Positions 43,087 through 51,698 of a DNA stretch of 64,000 bases are shown here, in pieces (within the stretch, counting starts at the first letter, position 1; each line of letters opens with the position of its first letter). The DNA lies in the NCBI GenBank assembly GCA_029263295.1, contig JAJCXT010000119.1, positions 1 through 64,000 on the forward strand. Direction: 5' to 3'. This DNA is from Acidobacteriota bacterium. Its GTDB lineage: Bacteria; Acidobacteriota; UBA890; WLXD01. The translations under genes and the position numbers were made by a program. The notes beneath the pieces are model-generated. The model was not told the DNA's origin, searched no databases, and worked only from the letters and a program-made list of their open reading frames with translations.

Positions 43087-43647
43087 TTGGGAATCCCCGC
43101 GACCCAAATCCGCAAAGGCATGATCCTCGAGGTGGATGGCGGTCTCTTCCAGGTCCACTCCTTCACCCACGTCACGCCAGGCAAGGGCCAGGCGGTGATG
43201 CAGACGCGGCTTCGCAACCTGCATACAGGTTCGCTCGCGGAGAAGCGCTTCCGCTCATCGGAGAGCGTCGAAGTGGCCCGCCGTGACAGTCGCATGATGC
43301 AGTACCTGTACAAGGACGGCGACCTTTATAGCTTCATGGATATGGAAACCTACGAGCAAATCGGGTTGACGGCCGAGAAACTCGGAGATGGACTTCCGTA
43401 CTTGATGGAGAACATGGAGGTCACGGTGGTCTACATCAACGACCAAGCCCTGAGTGTCGAACTGCCTGGCGTCGTGGAACTCGAGGTCACAGAGACCGAG
43501 CCCGCAGTGAAGGGCGCGACGGCTGCCGCGCAGACCAAACCGGCCACGCTCGAAACGGGTCTGGTCATCCAGGTACCGCCGTTCTTGAGCACGGGCGACC
43601 GCGTGCGCGTTGACACCGCCACCGGCTTGTACCTGACACGCGCCTGA
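43087..43647 (+). CDS. efp: Translation elongation factor P
   Basis: The product has 186 residues from a TTG with GAGGAG 7 bases upstream. Three beta-barrel domains are in normal order. The tip loop is THVTPGKGQAV, with Lys33 at the position that is modified in many species. EF-P relieves ribosome stalling at proline runs. No genes for the lysine-modifying enzymes are visible in the window. An imperfect 24-base duplication covers its 3' end and the spacer after it. Confidence 0.95.
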   Translation: MGIPATQIRKGMILEVDGGLFQVHSFTHVTPGKGQAVMQTRLRNLHTGSLAEKRFRSSESVEVARRDSRMMQYLYKDGDLYSFMDMETYEQIGLTAEKLGDGLPYLMENMEVTVVYINDQALSVELPGVVELEVTETEPAVKGATAAAQTKPATLETGLVIQVPPFLSTGDRVRVDTATGLYLTRA

Positions 43648-43696: not shown

Positions 43697-44857
43697 ATGA
43701 GCACCAAGGTCGAGGCACTTGAAGCCGACGCCAGCGCGCGGCCGCGGCTGCGCGAAGACCTGGCGGCGTTCGCTTCCGGTTCGGTTCTCGCGCTCGTACT
43801 GCTCTGGTACATCTACGGCACCTGGCAGCCCAACTGGGCTCTCGTCTGCGGCGGAGTGGGCGGAATCATCACGCGCCGCTGGGTGCGTCCGAGCTACGCC
43901 ACTTTTCCCGACTACATTCGGCGCCCGGTTAGCGTCGGTGTCGTTGTGCTCGGCACCGTATTCGCTGCCTGGGCTACGCTAGCGCGGGAGCCGCTGTCGG
44001 TCTGGCTGCTGCACTGGCGCGAGGCCGTGACCCTTCCGATCCTCGGGGGCATTCTCGGCCTCGGGCTCGCGTCCGTCATCTACTCGCACCGCCGTCTGGA
44101 GCGCGAGATAGAGGACAAGAAACGGCTCGAGGATGATCTCGCCATGGCGAGCCGGATCCAGCAGAACCTGCTGCAGACACGAGTGCCTGAACGCAGCTGG
44201 GTCGAAACGCACGCAGTGAACATCGCGTCACGGCAGGTGGGCGGTGACTACTACGAGATCATCGATTCCGGCGAGACAGGGATCTGTTTCGCGGTGGGCG
44301 ACGTGTCCGGCAAGGGAGTACCCGCAGCGCTGCTCATGTCGTCGTTGCAGTCGGCCTTCCTGGCTGCGTACGCGATCGATCCCCGCCTCGACCGCGTCTG
44401 CACCATCGTGAATCAGTTCCTGGTGACGAAGACTACGCCCGAGCGTTACGCAACGTTCTTCGTTGGGCAGCTGTCGCCCGAGGGGAACCTGTCGTACGTG
44501 AATGCTGGGCATAACCCACCGCTGATGATCGACGGCGGTGAGCCTGAACGCTTGTTCGGCGGCGGCCTGCCGCTCGGTCTATTCAGCGACAGCGACTACA
44601 TCGTTCACGAACGCAAAATAGGCCAGAACAGCATCCTGCTTGCATACACCGACGGGGTCACCGAGGCGACGAACATCCACGAGGAGGAGTTCGGAGAGGA
44701 ACGCCTGTCGCGGCTGATGATGTCGTTCTCCGGCGGTACCGCGGTCGACATCGCGGCGGCCGTGCTCGAGAGCATCCGGAGTCACAGCGGCAGCGGTACG
44801 GCACAGCACGACGACATCACGCTGCTAGTGCTGCGACCGCGGGCGAAGGTCTCTTGA
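43697..44857 (+). CDS. Membrane-anchored SpoIIE/PP2C-type phosphatase
   Basis: The product has 386 residues. The N-terminal part (about 22-130) has three to four membrane segments with WQPNWALVCGG, RRWVRPSYATFP and REPLSVWLLHWREAVTLP; the same domain occurs in the next gene. A short coiled linker (130-150) leads to an RsbU/SpoIIE phosphatase domain: QVGGDYYEI (Asp184), GDVSGKGVPAALLMS (Asp202), YVNAGHNPP, LAYTDGVTEA and HDDITLLV. Such enzymes dephosphorylate anti-anti-sigma or related proteins. No STAS or RsbW gene is adjacent; the coupling with the LytS kinase is likely. Confidence 0.9.
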   Translation: MSTKVEALEADASARPRLREDLAAFASGSVLALVLLWYIYGTWQPNWALVCGGVGGIITRRWVRPSYATFPDYIRRPVSVGVVVLGTVFAAWATLAREPLSVWLLHWREAVTLPILGGILGLGLASVIYSHRRLEREIEDKKRLEDDLAMASRIQQNLLQTRVPERSWVETHAVNIASRQVGGDYYEIIDSGETGICFAVGDVSGKGVPAALLMSSLQSAFLAAYAIDPRLDRVCTIVNQFLVTKTTPERYATFFVGQLSPEGNLSYVNAGHNPPLMIDGGEPERLFGGGLPLGLFSDSDYIVHERKIGQNSILLAYTDGVTEATNIHEEEFGEERLSRLMMSFSGGTAVDIAAAVLESIRSHSGSGTAQHDDITLLVLRPRAKVS

Positions 44858-45975
44858 GCGAGGCAAACGCCTCCGAAATCGATCTCCGGCTCGAGACGGA
44901 CGCTGCGCCGCGGCCGAGCAAGCGACTGCGACTGCTGTTCGATCTGATCGCCGTCGCGGGCGGCACCGGGATGGCGCTTCTCCTGCTCTGGTACTTGCAC
45001 GGGGCCTGGCAACCTGGGCGAGCCCTAGGCTGCGGGTTGATAAGTGGAATTGTGCTCCGCCGCATGGCGCGTCCGAGCTACAGCACCTTCCCCGCCTACC
45101 TGCGCCGCCCGATCGACACGGGAGTAGTTCTACTGGGCAGCATCCTCACCAGCTGGGCAACCCTGGCGAGCGAGCCCCTGTCCGTCTGGCTGCTGCTCTG
45201 GCGCGAGGCGGTGACCCTGCCGATACTGGCGACGGTGCTGGGGCTAGGGTTGGTTGGCGTCGTCTATTCGCACGCACGCATGCGCCGAGAGATCGAGGAG
45301 GCCCGCACGCGGGAGGCCGCGCTGCGCGAGGCTGCGCTCCGCGCCCGGCTGCGCGCGCTCCAGGCTCAGATCAATCCACACTTCCTGTTCAACGCGTTCA
45401 ACGCGCTGGCTGAACTCACCCATGCCGACCCAGAAGTCGCCGAACAGATGGTCGGCGACCTGGCCCACATCCTCCGCTACACCCTGCGTTCATCGGCCGA
45501 GGGTATCGTCCACCTCGACCGGGAACTCGAGGTGATCCGCCGATACCTGCGCGTCGAGAAGGCCCGGCTCGGTGATCGCCTGTGTGTGATCGAACAGATC
45601 GCGCCGGAGACGCTCAAGCGGCCGCTGCCGGGGCTCGTGCTCCAGCCGCTGGTTGAAAACGCCGTGCTGCACGCCGTCGCACCGCGCCGCGAGGGCGGGA
45701 CGATACGCATCGAGGTCGTGGCGCGCGAAGACCACCTTCGTATCCGCGTCGATGACGATGGCCCGGGACTCCCCGCCGCGGTTCATGAAGCGCTAGCGGT
45801 CGACTACGCCGAGGCCATCGCTATCGAAAGAGCCAGCCGTGGTGGCACCGGCGGAGCCGGCGGGGGGCTGGTGAACGTGCGCCAACGGCTGCTCCTGCGC
45901 TACCGTGGCAGCGCCACGCTGGAAACGGCAGAATTGAATCCCGGCACGCGCATCGAAGTGAGGATCCCACAATGA
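44854..45975 (+). CDS. LytS-type sensor histidine kinase
   Basis: The product has 373 residues from a TTG overlapping the phosphatase stop (TTGA). Residues of about 30-140 repeat the membrane domain of the phosphatase gene. The kinase core has the family's H-box LQAQINPHFLFNAFNALAELTHA (His176), an N-box (LVENAVLHAVAPRR) and G-boxes DDDGPGLP and GGGLVNVRQRL. It should phosphorylate the LytTR regulator encoded next, whose start overlaps this stop. Confidence 0.92.
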   Translation: MSEANASEIDLRLETDAAPRPSKRLRLLFDLIAVAGGTGMALLLLWYLHGAWQPGRALGCGLISGIVLRRMARPSYSTFPAYLRRPIDTGVVLLGSILTSWATLASEPLSVWLLLWREAVTLPILATVLGLGLVGVVYSHARMRREIEEARTREAALREAALRARLRALQAQINPHFLFNAFNALAELTHADPEVAEQMVGDLAHILRYTLRSSAEGIVHLDRELEVIRRYLRVEKARLGDRLCVIEQIAPETLKRPLPGLVLQPLVENAVLHAVAPRREGGTIRIEVVAREDHLRIRVDDDGPGLPAAVHEALAVDYAEAIAIERASRGGTGGAGGGLVNVRQRLLLRYRGSATLETAELNPGTRIEVRIPQ

Positions 45976-46760
45976 CCATTCGCGCCTTGTTAGTAGACGA
46001 CGAGCCGCTGGCCCGCCGTCGCCTCAAGCGACTTCTGGCCGAGCACACCGACGTCGAGGTAATTGGCGAGGCGGCAGACGGAGACGAAGCTGTGCACAAC
46101 GTCCTCGAGCTGCAGCCCGACCTGGTCTTCCTCGACGTGCGCATGCCGGGCAGCACGGGCATCGAGGCGCTCGAGGAGATGCACCGGCAACTGCCCGACA
46201 CGGTCCGTCCACTGGCCGTTTTCACCACTGCCTACGAGGAACACGCTGTCGAGGCGTTCGCGCTGGAGGGAACCGACTACCTGATCAAGCCGATCGACCA
46301 GGAGCAGCTTACACGCGCACTGCGGCGAGCCCGCGAGACACTGTGGACTCGGCGTGGACGCCCCGCCGACGACGAAGAGGCCGAGGCTCCCGCAACGGCA
46401 ACGGCGCCAGCACCGGCAAGCACGGTCGCCGCGCACGTGGCGGCGCATCGGGCCGGCAAGATCGTGAACCTGGCTACCGAGGATATTGGCTGCGTGGCCG
46501 TCGAGGACACGATCACATGGGCTCATACACCCCAGGGCAAGTACAGGCTCAAAGCCGCCCTGCACGAAATCGAAGAGCGCCTCCCGTCGCCACCCTTCGT
46601 GCGTGTCTCGCGCTCGACGATCATCAACCTCGAGTGGATCGACCACCTCTCCCCCATGTACTCGGGCACATACAAGGCGTCGCTGAGAGGGGCCATCGGC
46701 CTGGAGGTCCACGTCTCACGGCGGCGAGCACGACGATTGCGCGAGTTGCTGGGATGGTGA
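45972..46760 (+). CDS. LytTR-family response regulator
   Basis: The product has 262 residues. The receiver domain has the acidic pair VDDEP at 8-12, phospho-acceptor Asp55 in LVFLDVRMPG, and Lys of LIKPID near 103. An Ala/Pro/Thr-rich linker (about 125-155) leads to a LytTR DNA-binding domain with LKAALHEIEERLPSPPFVRVSRSTIINLEWI. It overlaps the LytS kinase gene by ATGA. Likely target promoters include the following membrane-protein/ABC genes, by position only. Confidence 0.93.
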   Translation: MTIRALLVDDEPLARRRLKRLLAEHTDVEVIGEAADGDEAVHNVLELQPDLVFLDVRMPGSTGIEALEEMHRQLPDTVRPLAVFTTAYEEHAVEAFALEGTDYLIKPIDQEQLTRALRRARETLWTRRGRPADDEEAEAPATATAPAPASTVAAHVAAHRAGKIVNLATEDIGCVAVEDTITWAHTPQGKYRLKAALHEIEERLPSPPFVRVSRSTIINLEWIDHLSPMYSGTYKASLRGAIGLEVHVSRRRARRLRELLGW

Positions 46761-46901
46761 CCCAATCCACTCAACGGCGGCTATCGACCGGTGACGCGCA
46801 CGAACGGCCGCTGCGTAACCGGGGTATCGCGGCCTCCGTGCCGCACTGCGATACTCGTTAGTTAACCGGTGTCGAAACCCTATTCTGCAGAGCGACCGGA
46901 T

Positions 46902-48119
46902 ATGAAGACTCAGAGAGCATTCCTAGTGGCGGGCCGTTGGGCCGCTGGCCTGGCGGCAGTTCTACTGCTGGCACCCGCCGTAGCCCAGCAGACACCCGAC
47001 GCACCTTCGGTCGCAGCCGCTGAGGCCGCGACTCCGAGTCAGAGACAGAGCGACGGGCCGCCCGCGGCCGAGCGCGAACTGCCACCGATTCCCGACCCGC
47101 CCCGCTTCCTGAGCGAGATCGTCGGCAATGTCGGCGATGTCAACGGTGACCTCTTTTTCTGGGGCCAGTCCGTGAATCTCGCTGGCAGCGTTCTGAACAA
47201 CGCGTTCGTCGGAGGCAGCACCGCGTCGATCGACGGGGTCGTGGGCAGCGACGCCTTCATCTTCGGAGCCACGGGCTACGTGAACGGCGAAGTCATGCAG
47301 AACGTCTATGCCTTTGCGGGGCAGATGTTCGTCAACGAAGGGGCCGTGATCCACGGCAACCTGATTTGTTTCTGCGGCGCGCTGACGATCAACGGTACCG
47401 TGCGCGGCCAGGTTCTCGGCTCGGGAGGGTCGACGAACGTGACCGGCGAGGTCGGTTCGATGAAGCTCGAGGTCGGGCATCTCCTCGTGACCTCAGACGC
47501 GGTCATTCACGGTGACCTCGAATATGAGGCCAACGACGAGGCCGACATCTCGGACGAAGCCCGGATCGGCGGCGTCGTCCGCTGGGATCAGGACGAACCG
47601 GCCGAGGACTCGGCACCCGAGGAGTCCACCAGATTCGGTTTCTGGGACGTCGCCAGCGACGTCTGGTGGTACCTGGCAAATCTGACGGTCGGTGTAGCGT
47701 TCCTGCTCATCGGTGGTCCGCTGGCGCGGGCTCCCGTCCAGCGGTTGCGCGAACAGGCTGCGGTCGGACTCGGCTTCGGATTCGTGGTGACCGTCGTGGT
47801 CCCGGTGGCATGCCTCATCGCCATCGCGGGTCTGATCACGCTGCCGCTCGGCCTGATCGTAATGGAGTTCTACGTCCTGGCGCTGTTCCTGGCCCGGCTG
47901 GTCACGGCACAATTCCTGGGCGACTGGTTGCTGCGCAAGTCAGGCCAGGAGACTCCCTCCGAATACCTGGCCCTTGCCGGCGGACTAGTGCTCTTTTTCG
48001 TCGCGACCGAGATTCCGTACGTCGGCTTCCTGATCTACCTGACCGCGTTGTTCCTGGGGATGGGCGGGCTGTTCCTTGCCGGTCGCGGCAGGCGTCTGAC
48101 AGCCACGGTGCGTGGATGA
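46902..48119 (+). CDS. Bactofilin-like polymer-forming membrane protein
   Basis: From the ATG at 46902 the product has 405 residues with a signal peptide (LAAVLLLAPAVAQQ). Residues of about 70-230 form a parallel beta-helix with short repeating rungs (VNLAGSVLNNAFVGGSTASIDGVVGSDAFIFGATGYVNGEV), as in polymer-forming cytoskeletal/bactofilin-like proteins. The last 150 residues hold four to five membrane segments (VGVAFLLIGGPLA, FGFVVTVVVPVACLIAIAGLITLPLGL). An in-frame GTG at 46869 is possible. Its stop overlaps the ABC ATPase start by 8 bases. Confidence 0.78.
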   Translation: MKTQRAFLVAGRWAAGLAAVLLLAPAVAQQTPDAPSVAAAEAATPSQRQSDGPPAAERELPPIPDPPRFLSEIVGNVGDVNGDLFFWGQSVNLAGSVLNNAFVGGSTASIDGVVGSDAFIFGATGYVNGEVMQNVYAFAGQMFVNEGAVIHGNLICFCGALTINGTVRGQVLGSGGSTNVTGEVGSMKLEVGHLLVTSDAVIHGDLEYEANDEADISDEARIGGVVRWDQDEPAEDSAPEESTRFGFWDVASDVWWYLANLTVGVAFLLIGGPLARAPVQRLREQAAVGLGFGFVVTVVVPVACLIAIAGLITLPLGLIVMEFYVLALFLARLVTAQFLGDWLLRKSGQETPSEYLALAGGLVLFFVATEIPYVGFLIYLTALFLGMGGLFLAGRGRRLTATVRG

Positions 48120-49065
48120 CGCGTTGATCGTCCAGGCGCACGGACTCCGCAAGGAGTACGGCGACACAGTCGCGCTGCGAAGCCTCGATATCGAGATCGA
48201 AGCCGGCGGCATAGTGGGCATCCTGGGTCCGAACGGCGCGGGTAAGACGACCTTCGTGGAGACTCTAGAGGGCCTCCGTGCGCCGACCTCCGGCTCGGTG
48301 ACCGTCCTCGGGATGGACCCCACGACACAGGGAAAGGCGCTGCGCGAGAGGCTCGGGGTGCAACTCCAGAAGACTGCGCTACCCAAGGAACTGACCGTCC
48401 GCGAGGTGCTCGGGCTGTTCGCCTCGTTCTATGCGTCGGCGTCGCCGACGAACTCCATCCTCGAGAAGGTCGACCTGATCTCCGAGGCCAACCAGAAGAC
48501 GGCGACGTTATCGGGAGGGCAGCAGCAACGACTCGTCGTCGCCATCGCGTTGAGCCACGACCCTGAATTGGTGATCCTCGATGAGCCCACCACCGGCCTT
48601 GATCCCAAGGCACGGCGGGACTTACACGAGGTAATCCGCCAGTTGCGTGAGCAGGGCCGTACGACACTCCTCACCACCCACTACATCGAAGAGGCCGAGC
48701 AACTCTGCGACCGGGTGATCATGATCCGCGATGGTGAGATCGTGGCCGATGGCGCGCCGTTCGATCTGGTCGGCCGATCGAGCGAATCTTCGACTATCTG
48801 GATCCACGTCGACGGACCGATGGACCCGGCGCCGCTCATCGCCGCCGGCGTCCTACCGCTGGGCCAGGAGGGGGCCCACCATAAGTTCGTCACGACCGAC
48901 CCCACGGCCACGATCCTCGCGTTGGGCGACATGCTGCGCTCGCAGGGCCTGCGGCTCGTGGATCTGCGCCTCAGACGGCCGACGCTCGAGGACGTCTATC
49001 TCGAATTCATGGGCGACGCGCCCGACGACGCCACACTGGAAGATGGCGCCGAGTCGTCACCATGA
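48112..49065 (+). CDS. ABC-2 exporter ATPase
   Basis: The product has 317 residues from a GTG inside the end of the previous gene. Walker A is GPNGAGKTT at about 39-47, signature LSGGQQQR, Walker B LVILDEPTTGLDP, switch His TTHY. The C-terminal extension after residue 225 is typical of drug or lipid export ATPases (CcmA/DrrA type). It overlaps the permease gene by ATGA. The cargo is unknown. Confidence 0.93.
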   Translation: MDDALIVQAHGLRKEYGDTVALRSLDIEIEAGGIVGILGPNGAGKTTFVETLEGLRAPTSGSVTVLGMDPTTQGKALRERLGVQLQKTALPKELTVREVLGLFASFYASASPTNSILEKVDLISEANQKTATLSGGQQQRLVVAIALSHDPELVILDEPTTGLDPKARRDLHEVIRQLREQGRTTLLTTHYIEEAEQLCDRVIMIRDGEIVADGAPFDLVGRSSESSTIWIHVDGPMDPAPLIAAGVLPLGQEGAHHKFVTTDPTATILALGDMLRSQGLRLVDLRLRRPTLEDVYLEFMGDAPDDATLEDGAESSP

Positions 49066-49910
49066 GCCATCCCCTACGAGGTCTCGGACCGCTCACGCGC
49101 GCGTACCTGCTGCAGTCATTCCGGTCGCGCACCGCCATCCTCTGGAACCTCGTGTTTCCGATGGTATGGCTATTCCTGTTCGGGTTCATTTTCTACCGTG
49201 ACGACGCCTCGCTCATGATGCCCGGCCTGTTCACCATTACGCTGATCTCAGGCGCCTTCTTCGGCGTCTCGTATCTGATGGTGTCAGAACGTGAGGCTGG
49301 AATCCTGCGCCTGTACCGCGTGACGCCGGTATCGGCGCTAACCGTGGTCCTGGCCAATGCCATTCGCGCGATGGCAGTGCTGTCGATTTCCGTCGGCGCC
49401 CAGGCCAGCGTCGGCTGGGTCCTGTTCCGCTACGAGGTGGCCGGATCCGTTACGCTAACGTTCTTCATCATGTTGATTGGTGCTGCGGCCTTCGTTCCGC
49501 TCGGCATGTTCGTGGGCAGCGTCGCCCAGGACATGCGCACAGCCCCGGCGATCAGCAACCTGATCTTCTTCCCGCTCGTGTTCGCTTCGGGCGCGGCGCG
49601 GCCCGCTTTCATGTTGCCGGACTGGATGCAGGCGGTGATGCGAATCATCCCGTCCAGCTACCTGGTCGAGGCGATGCAGGGGGTCATGCTGCGCGGCCAT
49701 GGCCTCGTCGAACTAGCTGGGCCCATCACCGTGTTGCTGCTCACCCTGGTGGTGGGCGCCTGGTTCAACAGCAAGATGTTCCGCTGGGAGACCAGCGAGC
49801 CACTGAACAAGCGCGCCATGCTCACCGCCATCCTGGTGTTGACGTTGCTCTACGTCACCGCGGCCCTGCTCGCCCCTGATTTCGAGATGGTGCGTCCACC
49901 TGGGGCCTAG
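49062..49910 (+). CDS. ABC-2 type permease
   Basis: The product has 282 residues and six membrane segments. The family's signature helix appears as NLIFFPLVFASGAARPAFMLPDWMQAVMRIIPSSYLVEAMQGVMLRG. It forms the exporter with the ATPase encoded just before it. The pair follows a LytS/LytTR system, an arrangement often seen for envelope-stress or antibiotic-peptide exporters. Confidence 0.92.
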   Translation: MSHPLRGLGPLTRAYLLQSFRSRTAILWNLVFPMVWLFLFGFIFYRDDASLMMPGLFTITLISGAFFGVSYLMVSEREAGILRLYRVTPVSALTVVLANAIRAMAVLSISVGAQASVGWVLFRYEVAGSVTLTFFIMLIGAAAFVPLGMFVGSVAQDMRTAPAISNLIFFPLVFASGAARPAFMLPDWMQAVMRIIPSSYLVEAMQGVMLRGHGLVELAGPITVLLLTLVVGAWFNSKMFRWETSEPLNKRAMLTAILVLTLLYVTAALLAPDFEMVRPPGA

Positions 49911-50048
49911 CAGGCGGTGGCCGCCCGAGATCCGAACCTGTCGAGATCTCGTACGAATCGGCTTCGGAATGCTCCTGGCGGGGCGCTAATCTCGACTTCT
50001 ACCGTCCGCCCGAGCTTTACCTGCGTCCGCCGCCGGAGAAACGAACCG

Positions 50049-51698
50049 ATGCCCAAGTTGAGCCGCTCTGACCTGACTCTCGCCGCGCTAGGAATAGTGG
50101 GCGTGATGGCCATCTTCGGCCTCTACAAGTCGGCGTTTCCCCTGGCCATCGTGGAAATGGAGATCACTCGCGACGACGCCGTCGAGTACGCGGCACAGTT
50201 CGTCAGCAAGCAGGGCGGCGAACTGGGAGACTTCAAGCAGGCAGCGCTGTTCACCGGCGAGACCGAGTCACTGATCTTCCTGCAGAAGTCACTGAGCGCT
50301 GAAGACGCGGCTCGCTGGGCCCGAAGCGCACCCATCTGGAGCTGGAACGTCCGCTGGTTCCAGCCACTCGAGACCGAGGAATGGCTCGTCGACGTTGGCG
50401 TCACCGGCAGCATCGCCGCGTTCCGCCACATCATCGAAGAAACCGCTGCAGGGGCGAACCTCGAAGAAACAGCCGCCCGGCAGATCGCGTCGGCCTTTCT
50501 TGCCAATGAAGGCTGGGGAGTTGCTGAACTCGAGGCCGTCTCGGCCGTGAGCGACGTGAAGGCCAACCGCACCGACCATGTGTTTATCTGGCGCGCCAGT
50601 CCCGAGACCATCGCGTGGGCCGGCGACGGCGAAGGCGAGGCACGCGTTTCGGTGCGCGTGCAAGGCGATGAGGTGGGCGGCTATGCCCGCTGGGTACAGG
50701 TGCCGGAGGACTTCTCGCGCGAGCTCCAGAACACCCTGAGCGTCGGCACTCTGCTGGCCGTCGGCAGCATTGTCATCACCGTTCTGCTGACCTTGGCCGC
50801 AGCGGTAATCGCCATCACACGCTACCGTACGGGCGACATCGACTGGCGCACCGCGATCGTCTGCGGCGCTCTCGTGGGTACGATGTTCGCCATCTCGATC
50901 GCCACCAATTGGCCGCAGGCGCAGTTCGGCTACCAGACGCAGATTTCCTGGACCGTGTTCATCGGCTCAGCCCTACTCGGCCTGGTTCTGCTGTCGGTGT
51001 TCTATGTCGTCTTCGTGACCTTCCCGGTGGCCGCCGGCGTGAGCATGGCGCGTGACTTCTTTCCGAAGTCTGTCGATGGCTTTGCCGAGATGTTTGCGGG
51101 GAAGTTCTTCACGGCCAAGTTCGGAACGGCAGCGCTGCGCGGCTACGCGTTAGCCGCGGTCTTCCTCGGCTACCTCACGGCGTTCTACTGGTTCGCGCAG
51201 CGGTTCATGGGCGCATGGATGCCGGCCGAGGGCCCGTACTCCTCGATCTTCAACAACGCGTTCCCCTTCCTCACGCCGCTGACGATCTCGCTCGTTGCCG
51301 CGATCTCCGAGGAAACGATCTACCGCCTGTTCGGCGTCTCGCTGTTCAAGAAGATCACCGGCTCGACCTGGATGGCACTGCTGATCCCCGCGGCGATCTG
51401 GGCCTTCGGACACTCCAACTACCCAGTGTTCCCGGTCTACATTCGCGGCATAGAGCTCACCATCGGCGGGCTCATCTTTGGCATCGCGTTCCTACGCTAC
51501 GGCCTGGTGACCTGCATCGTGGCGCACTACGTGGTCGACGCCGTGGCACTCGGCATGCCCCTGGTTACAAGCGCCAACCCGACCTACATCGTGTCCGGTC
51601 TGGTCGCCATGAGTCTGGCGCTGGTACCAGGCATCATCGGCCTGTTCGCCGGCCGACGCGCCACCTCGGCGCCCGCTCCGGAGCAGGTCACCGCCTAG
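50049..51698 (+). CDS. CPBP-family intramembrane protease with large N-terminal domain
   Basis: The product has 549 residues from the ATG at 50049, with GGAGAA upstream. An N-terminal membrane segment (about 8-30) is followed by a 200-residue outer domain (AVEYAAQFVSKQGGELGDFKQAAL) and then about seven more membrane segments. The C-terminal CPBP (Abi) domain has EETIYRLFG, FGHSNYPVF and AHYVVDAV, the presumed Glu/His active residues. These proteases process prenylated or other membrane proteins. It follows the ABC exporter on the same strand. Confidence 0.87.
   Translation: MPKLSRSDLTLAALGIVGVMAIFGLYKSAFPLAIVEMEITRDDAVEYAAQFVSKQGGELGDFKQAALFTGETESLIFLQKSLSAEDAARWARSAPIWSWNVRWFQPLETEEWLVDVGVTGSIAAFRHIIEETAAGANLEETAARQIASAFLANEGWGVAELEAVSAVSDVKANRTDHVFIWRASPETIAWAGDGEGEARVSVRVQGDEVGGYARWVQVPEDFSRELQNTLSVGTLLAVGSIVITVLLTLAAAVIAITRYRTGDIDWRTAIVCGALVGTMFAISIATNWPQAQFGYQTQISWTVFIGSALLGLVLLSVFYVVFVTFPVAAGVSMARDFFPKSVDGFAEMFAGKFFTAKFGTAALRGYALAAVFLGYLTAFYWFAQRFMGAWMPAEGPYSSIFNNAFPFLTPLTISLVAAISEETIYRLFGVSLFKKITGSTWMALLIPAAIWAFGHSNYPVFPVYIRGIELTIGGLIFGIAFLRYGLVTCIVAHYVVDAVALGMPLVTSANPTYIVSGLVAMSLALVPGIIGLFAGRRATSAPAPEQVTA

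Follow-up and report, generated by a model that had tools for sequence, protein, structure and literature searches.

In the LytS/LytTR systems (i.e., LytSR, BtsSR and YpdAB), a kinase with His_kinase and HATPase_c domains is paired with a REC-LytTR response regulator. In the SpoIIE/RsbU/RsbP-type phosphatases of the partner-switching stress responses, a PPM domain is connected through a helical linker to an N-terminal sensor. A 2025 study of RsbU proposed that coiled-coil linkers let one type of sensor drive PPM phosphatases, kinases or cyclases, all of them dimers that are fed by helical linkers, with cited examples that come from different proteins and organisms (PMC12143880). In the RsbQ-PAS modules, one sensor family is coupled through coils to a PPM phosphatase, a histidine kinase or a cyclase, with exchange between lineages (Nadezhdin, 2011; PMC3183031). 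In RsfSR of Mycobacterium smegmatis, a histidine kinase and a PP2C phosphatase are brought into one signalling unit via a receiver domain (PMC10950880).

The window described here, a stretch of 64,000 nucleotides from a bacterium of the Acidobacteriota, carries a cassette in which one kind of membrane sensor is found on both a SpoIIE/PPM phosphatase (P) and a LytS-type histidine kinase (K), followed by a LytTR regulator (R) and an exported bactofilin-like protein (B). The features of this region are as follows.

43087..43647, + strand: elongation factor P gene (Pfam EFP domains), which ends 49 bases upstream of P
43697..44857, + strand: P, membrane-anchored SpoIIE/PPM phosphatase of 386 aa (Pfam SpoIIE, 3.5e-44), metal-binding motifs intact
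43748..44110, + strand: four-helix membrane sensor domain of P, residues 18-138, without a Pfam family
44081..44176, + strand: helical linker of P, which connects the end of helix 4 with the phosphatase domain and is of invariant length; a continuous helix (102-161) in a low-confidence model
44854..45975, + strand: K, LytS-type histidine kinase of 373 aa (Pfam His_kinase, 5.6e-25; HATPase_c, 1.4e-14) with the H176 motif
44932..45294, + strand: four-helix membrane sensor domain of K, residues 27-147, homologous to that of P
45265..45381, + strand: helical linker of K, which spans the stretch between the end of helix 4 and H176 and is of invariant length
45972..46760, + strand: R, REC-LytTR response regulator of 262 aa (Pfam Response_reg, 1.7e-23; LytTR, 1.7e-21) with D55
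46869..48119, + strand: B, exported bactofilin-like repeat protein of 416 aa with a C-terminal membrane region (Pfam Bactofilin, 0.0034, weak), kept behind R
48112..49065, + strand: ABC exporter ATPase, drrA-like (NCBIfam drrA, 3.1e-70, below the drrA cut-off)
49062..49910, + strand: ABC-2 type permease, drrB-like (NCBIfam drrB, 8.9e-14, below the drrB cut-off)

The P and K reading frames are open. K begins with TTG and overlaps the stop of P at TTGA, and R overlaps K by four bases; the coordinates thus bear out both overlaps of the original prediction, which had named P, K and R correctly and had missed B directly behind R. An ATG at about 46902 is a possible true start of B. All the catalytic motifs that were examined are intact, i.e., VGGD (D184), GDVSGKG (D202), TDG (D319) and DDIT (D372-373) in P, and NPHFLFN (H176), ENAVLH, DDGPG and GGGL in K, and the phospho-acceptor motif residue D55 is present in R. 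In Pfam, P consists of SpoIIE alone, with neither a receiver domain nor a PAS domain. The elongation factor P gene, which by its sequence also adjoins the cassette in another locus (L030), is possibly co-transcribed with P and lies outside the signalling unit.

Over 139 aa, P and K are 60% identical at their N-termini (E = 2e-49), and the alignment scores 67 standard deviations above shuffled sequences, which establishes the homology of the two membrane domains that had been predicted. Neither N-terminus has a Pfam match at E up to 1 or an NCBIfam match, and no consistent Pfam match was found for 19 domains of the type present in distant families. No convincing structural match to the sensor domain was found in the PDB, where a hit to NDRG1 (E = 0.019) was attributed to chance. 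The four helices are those of a low-confidence structure model of the P sensor, built on an alignment of four sequences; the model of full-length P, built on two sequences, is also of low confidence.

Profiles of the window-type and distant-type domains were searched against 396 Acidobacteriota genomes, and the sensor domain was found in 28 of them, nearly always in an adjacent pair of P and K. Strong matches to the window-type profile occurred in 6 of the 396 genomes, all in the window's order and each with two adjacent copies (i.e., P and K); three further genomes of this order, none of them complete, were without it. The distant-type profile matched in 22 genomes, nearly all as adjacent pairs. 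Once the linkers are cut off, the P and K domains of the distant families are clearly homologous to each other (hhalign, 6.8e-16 and 2e-27). The homology between the window-type and distant-type domains appears modest (hhalign, 3e-7 over 84 columns, with reversed controls at 0.04 or worse), and an HMM made from the distant sequences alone matched most domains of the window's order at 3e-5 to 1e-2 and had no match in eight loci with other LytS kinases. The domain was found neither in 201 genomes of one other phylum nor in three distant genomes. The possibility that the domain is a known LytS sensor family spread on phosphatases does not agree with these results, given that it belongs to no Pfam or PDB family and is nearly confined to adjacent P and K.

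A P-K-R set was identified in a distant family (G010) by a search with the phosphatase, and the loci found by following its kinase belong to families f4, f64, f55, f26 and f80. In these loci P, K and R, together with B where the contig reaches that far, are encoded on one strand in an unchanged order. The phosphatase-kinase-LytTR triplet is therefore kept in at least five other families, and the P-K-R-B arrangement is confirmed as real, conserved and general. There are exceptions: two loci (L102 and L140) are without P, one (L108) has a weak match, and in one (L105) the kinase frame is short and B is elsewhere in the genome. In the last of these (G334, L105:4098-6187), the sensor domain alone is recognised in a frame of about 286 codons and B is found on the same contig at a distance of about 900 kb, which possibly reflects decay or an assembly error.

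Two loci hold a reduced cassette. In G205, P and B occur without kinase or regulator (L139:6324-8818), and in G038, K, R and B occur without phosphatase (L140:5073-8380), so the two outputs are separable. The latter locus would also be expected if the real system were K-R-B, and P only a recent fusion with the membrane anchor of K that has no shared signalling role; a membrane domain can indeed be a mere anchor. However, the P motifs are intact and the P linker is invariant across families, P is kept with B in the absence of K in G205, and the P and K domains change together, so that we consider P very unlikely to be such a passenger.

Linker length varies with neither genome nor family within a domain class. 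It is 27 residues in the six P proteins of the window's order and 34 in 19 distant ones, and 36 residues in the six K proteins of the order and 43 in 19 distant ones, with no exception. Compared with the distant linkers, those of the window's order are shorter by an equal amount in P and K, namely by 7 residues, or one heptad, a value that depends on the profile alignment and register used. The equality of the two shortenings is independent of that alignment because, in each class, P and K were measured from a common anchor. These lengths would fit a linker that forms a rigid coiled coil, and replacement of sensor and linker as one unit in both genes.

The trees also point to matched evolution of P and K. 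P domains and K domains from the distant families cluster largely apart. Those of the window's order are united in a single group (100/100), in which the P and K sets of the genus are sisters (96/92), and they are closer to each other than to their counterparts elsewhere. Monophyly of the P domains is rejected for the tree as a whole (p = 5e-5) and, more weakly and in the presence of long branches, within the order (p = 0.016). Because the P and K domains of the order are in one clade, the pair has undergone homogenisation or re-duplication on at least one occasion. A synonymous-codon test for recent gene conversion gave an excess in G007 alone (p = 0.0013), with p = 0.06 for the window, and any gene conversion in the window itself would accordingly be old.

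Such homogenisation or re-duplication would be expected if P and K were subunits that must fit each other. They might co-assemble via their matched membrane domains, with P directly tuning K or R, e.g., by removing Ser/Thr phosphates, and with no separate arm of signalling. Consistent with this are the linkers that changed in step and the 4-base overlap of the P and K genes. On the other hand, the P and K domains of the distant families have diverged into separate clades, P or K can occur alone (G205 and G038), and a requirement for a common ligand would likewise keep the domains alike. A hetero-oligomer of this kind is therefore unlikely in our view.

A single origin of the cassette is not proved by the trees of the catalytic domains, which are quick trees with SH-aLRT support only. 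For the window's order, the P catalytic domains cluster with the order's own FHA-SpoIIE paralogue (82); the distant P domains are split between two separate clades. It is thus possible, though not the more probable course of events, that the cassette arose more than once by convergence, with separate lineages fusing different SpoIIE phosphatases and kinases to the sensor. The deep forks of these trees are weak, however, and gene order and sensor family are constant throughout. This alternative is about origin, not function, and its likelihood does not exclude the other readings.

The comparison with the described systems shows known parts in what appears to be a new combination, and no description of a P-K-R-B module was found in the literature that we searched. 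K and R have the domains of the LytS/LytTR systems, and their genes adjoin and overlap, but the sensor is not of the 5TMR-LYT type (no Pfam match) and the pair is preceded by a phosphatase that carries this sensor as well. P shares the PPM domain, helical linker and N-terminal sensor of the RsbU-type phosphatases; in contrast to the RsbU-RsbV-RsbW modules, it has no STAS or RsbW protein alongside and is paired instead with a same-sensor kinase. In the RsbQ-PAS modules the outputs differ between organisms, whereas here a single operon encodes both, with a membrane domain as the sensor; no PAS domain was found by Pfam in P or K, and no hydrolase gene adjoins them. Unlike the phosphatase of RsfSR, P has its own copy of the sensor and no receiver domain. 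The same difference applies to three loci of other families (L150:3942-8423, L157:3528-7716 and L151), in which a LytS kinase is followed by a REC-SpoIIE fusion and a LytTR regulator. These loci appear to combine the two outputs in a different way, which resembles that of RsfSR.

We consider it somewhat probable that P, K, R and B constitute a two-output membrane signalling cassette, in which one kind of sensor on two enzymes is coupled to them via helical linkers of fixed length. As a design, one signal with two outputs appears well supported, because the domain is essentially confined to pairs of P and K and the triplet is conserved across families. In such a cassette the sensor would dimerise and sense some condition of the membrane or the cell envelope, possibly one connected with B. 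K would phosphorylate R on D55, and R would control its own operon, probably B and, in the window's order, the ABC exporter. In response to the same signal, P would dephosphorylate a Ser/Thr-phosphorylated protein as the second arm, perhaps a single STAS-type antagonist encoded elsewhere in the genome.

PPM phosphatases have phosphoserine and phosphothreonine substrates, and histidine kinases pass phosphate from His to Asp. The two outputs, described in the original prediction as enzymes of opposite chemistry, are indeed a phosphatase and a kinase, but they act on different phospho-residues, and the description is only partly right. The predicted absence of the usual partners, STAS and RsbW, holds locally, as none of the genes neighbouring P in the window encodes either, but not for the genome, which encodes, at other sites, a single STAS protein and at least one RsbW-like ATPase. 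The same genome also encodes a second SpoIIE phosphatase (L031:7432-9135, - strand, G000:C10), the catalytic domain of which is about 47% identical to that of P and the N-terminus of which, judged from sequence only, is FHA-like.

More speculatively, and with rather more doubt than hope, P and K might be subunits of a two-enzyme receptor on one sensor, matched by homogenisation and working mixed or in parallel, so that one envelope signal would set both His-Asp and Ser/Thr phosphorylation and control an exported bactofilin-like polymer of the envelope. Because a single operon here encodes a phosphatase and a kinase that carry the same sensor, with linker lengths that change in step, the idea of a shared sensor is directly testable by domain swaps. 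The cassette also points to an unstudied route of envelope signalling in a large and poorly studied phylum.

B resembles the bactofilins in its bactofilin-like repeats and differs from the cytoplasmic members in that a signal peptide precedes the repeats and a hydrophobic membrane region follows them. The match of the window's B to PF04519 (Bactofilin) is below the cut-off, and five distant homologues are above it. Full-length B was found in 20 of the 22 carrier genomes and in 2 of 57 others, a count that ignores relatedness. No clear conserved regulator site was found in the gap between R and B. In G100, a genome without P or K, a homologue of B is located behind genes for an ECF sigma factor and a zf-HC2 anti-sigma factor (L168:6102-8671, - strand), which points to B as an output under regulation.

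The drrAB-like ABC pair is tied to the cassette in the window's order only, where it also occurs in L026, L027 and L028. By eye, the membrane protein that follows the pair in the window looks like a CPBP-type protease, and the block formed by the pair and this protein (48112-51698) is also found behind the cassette in L026 and L027.
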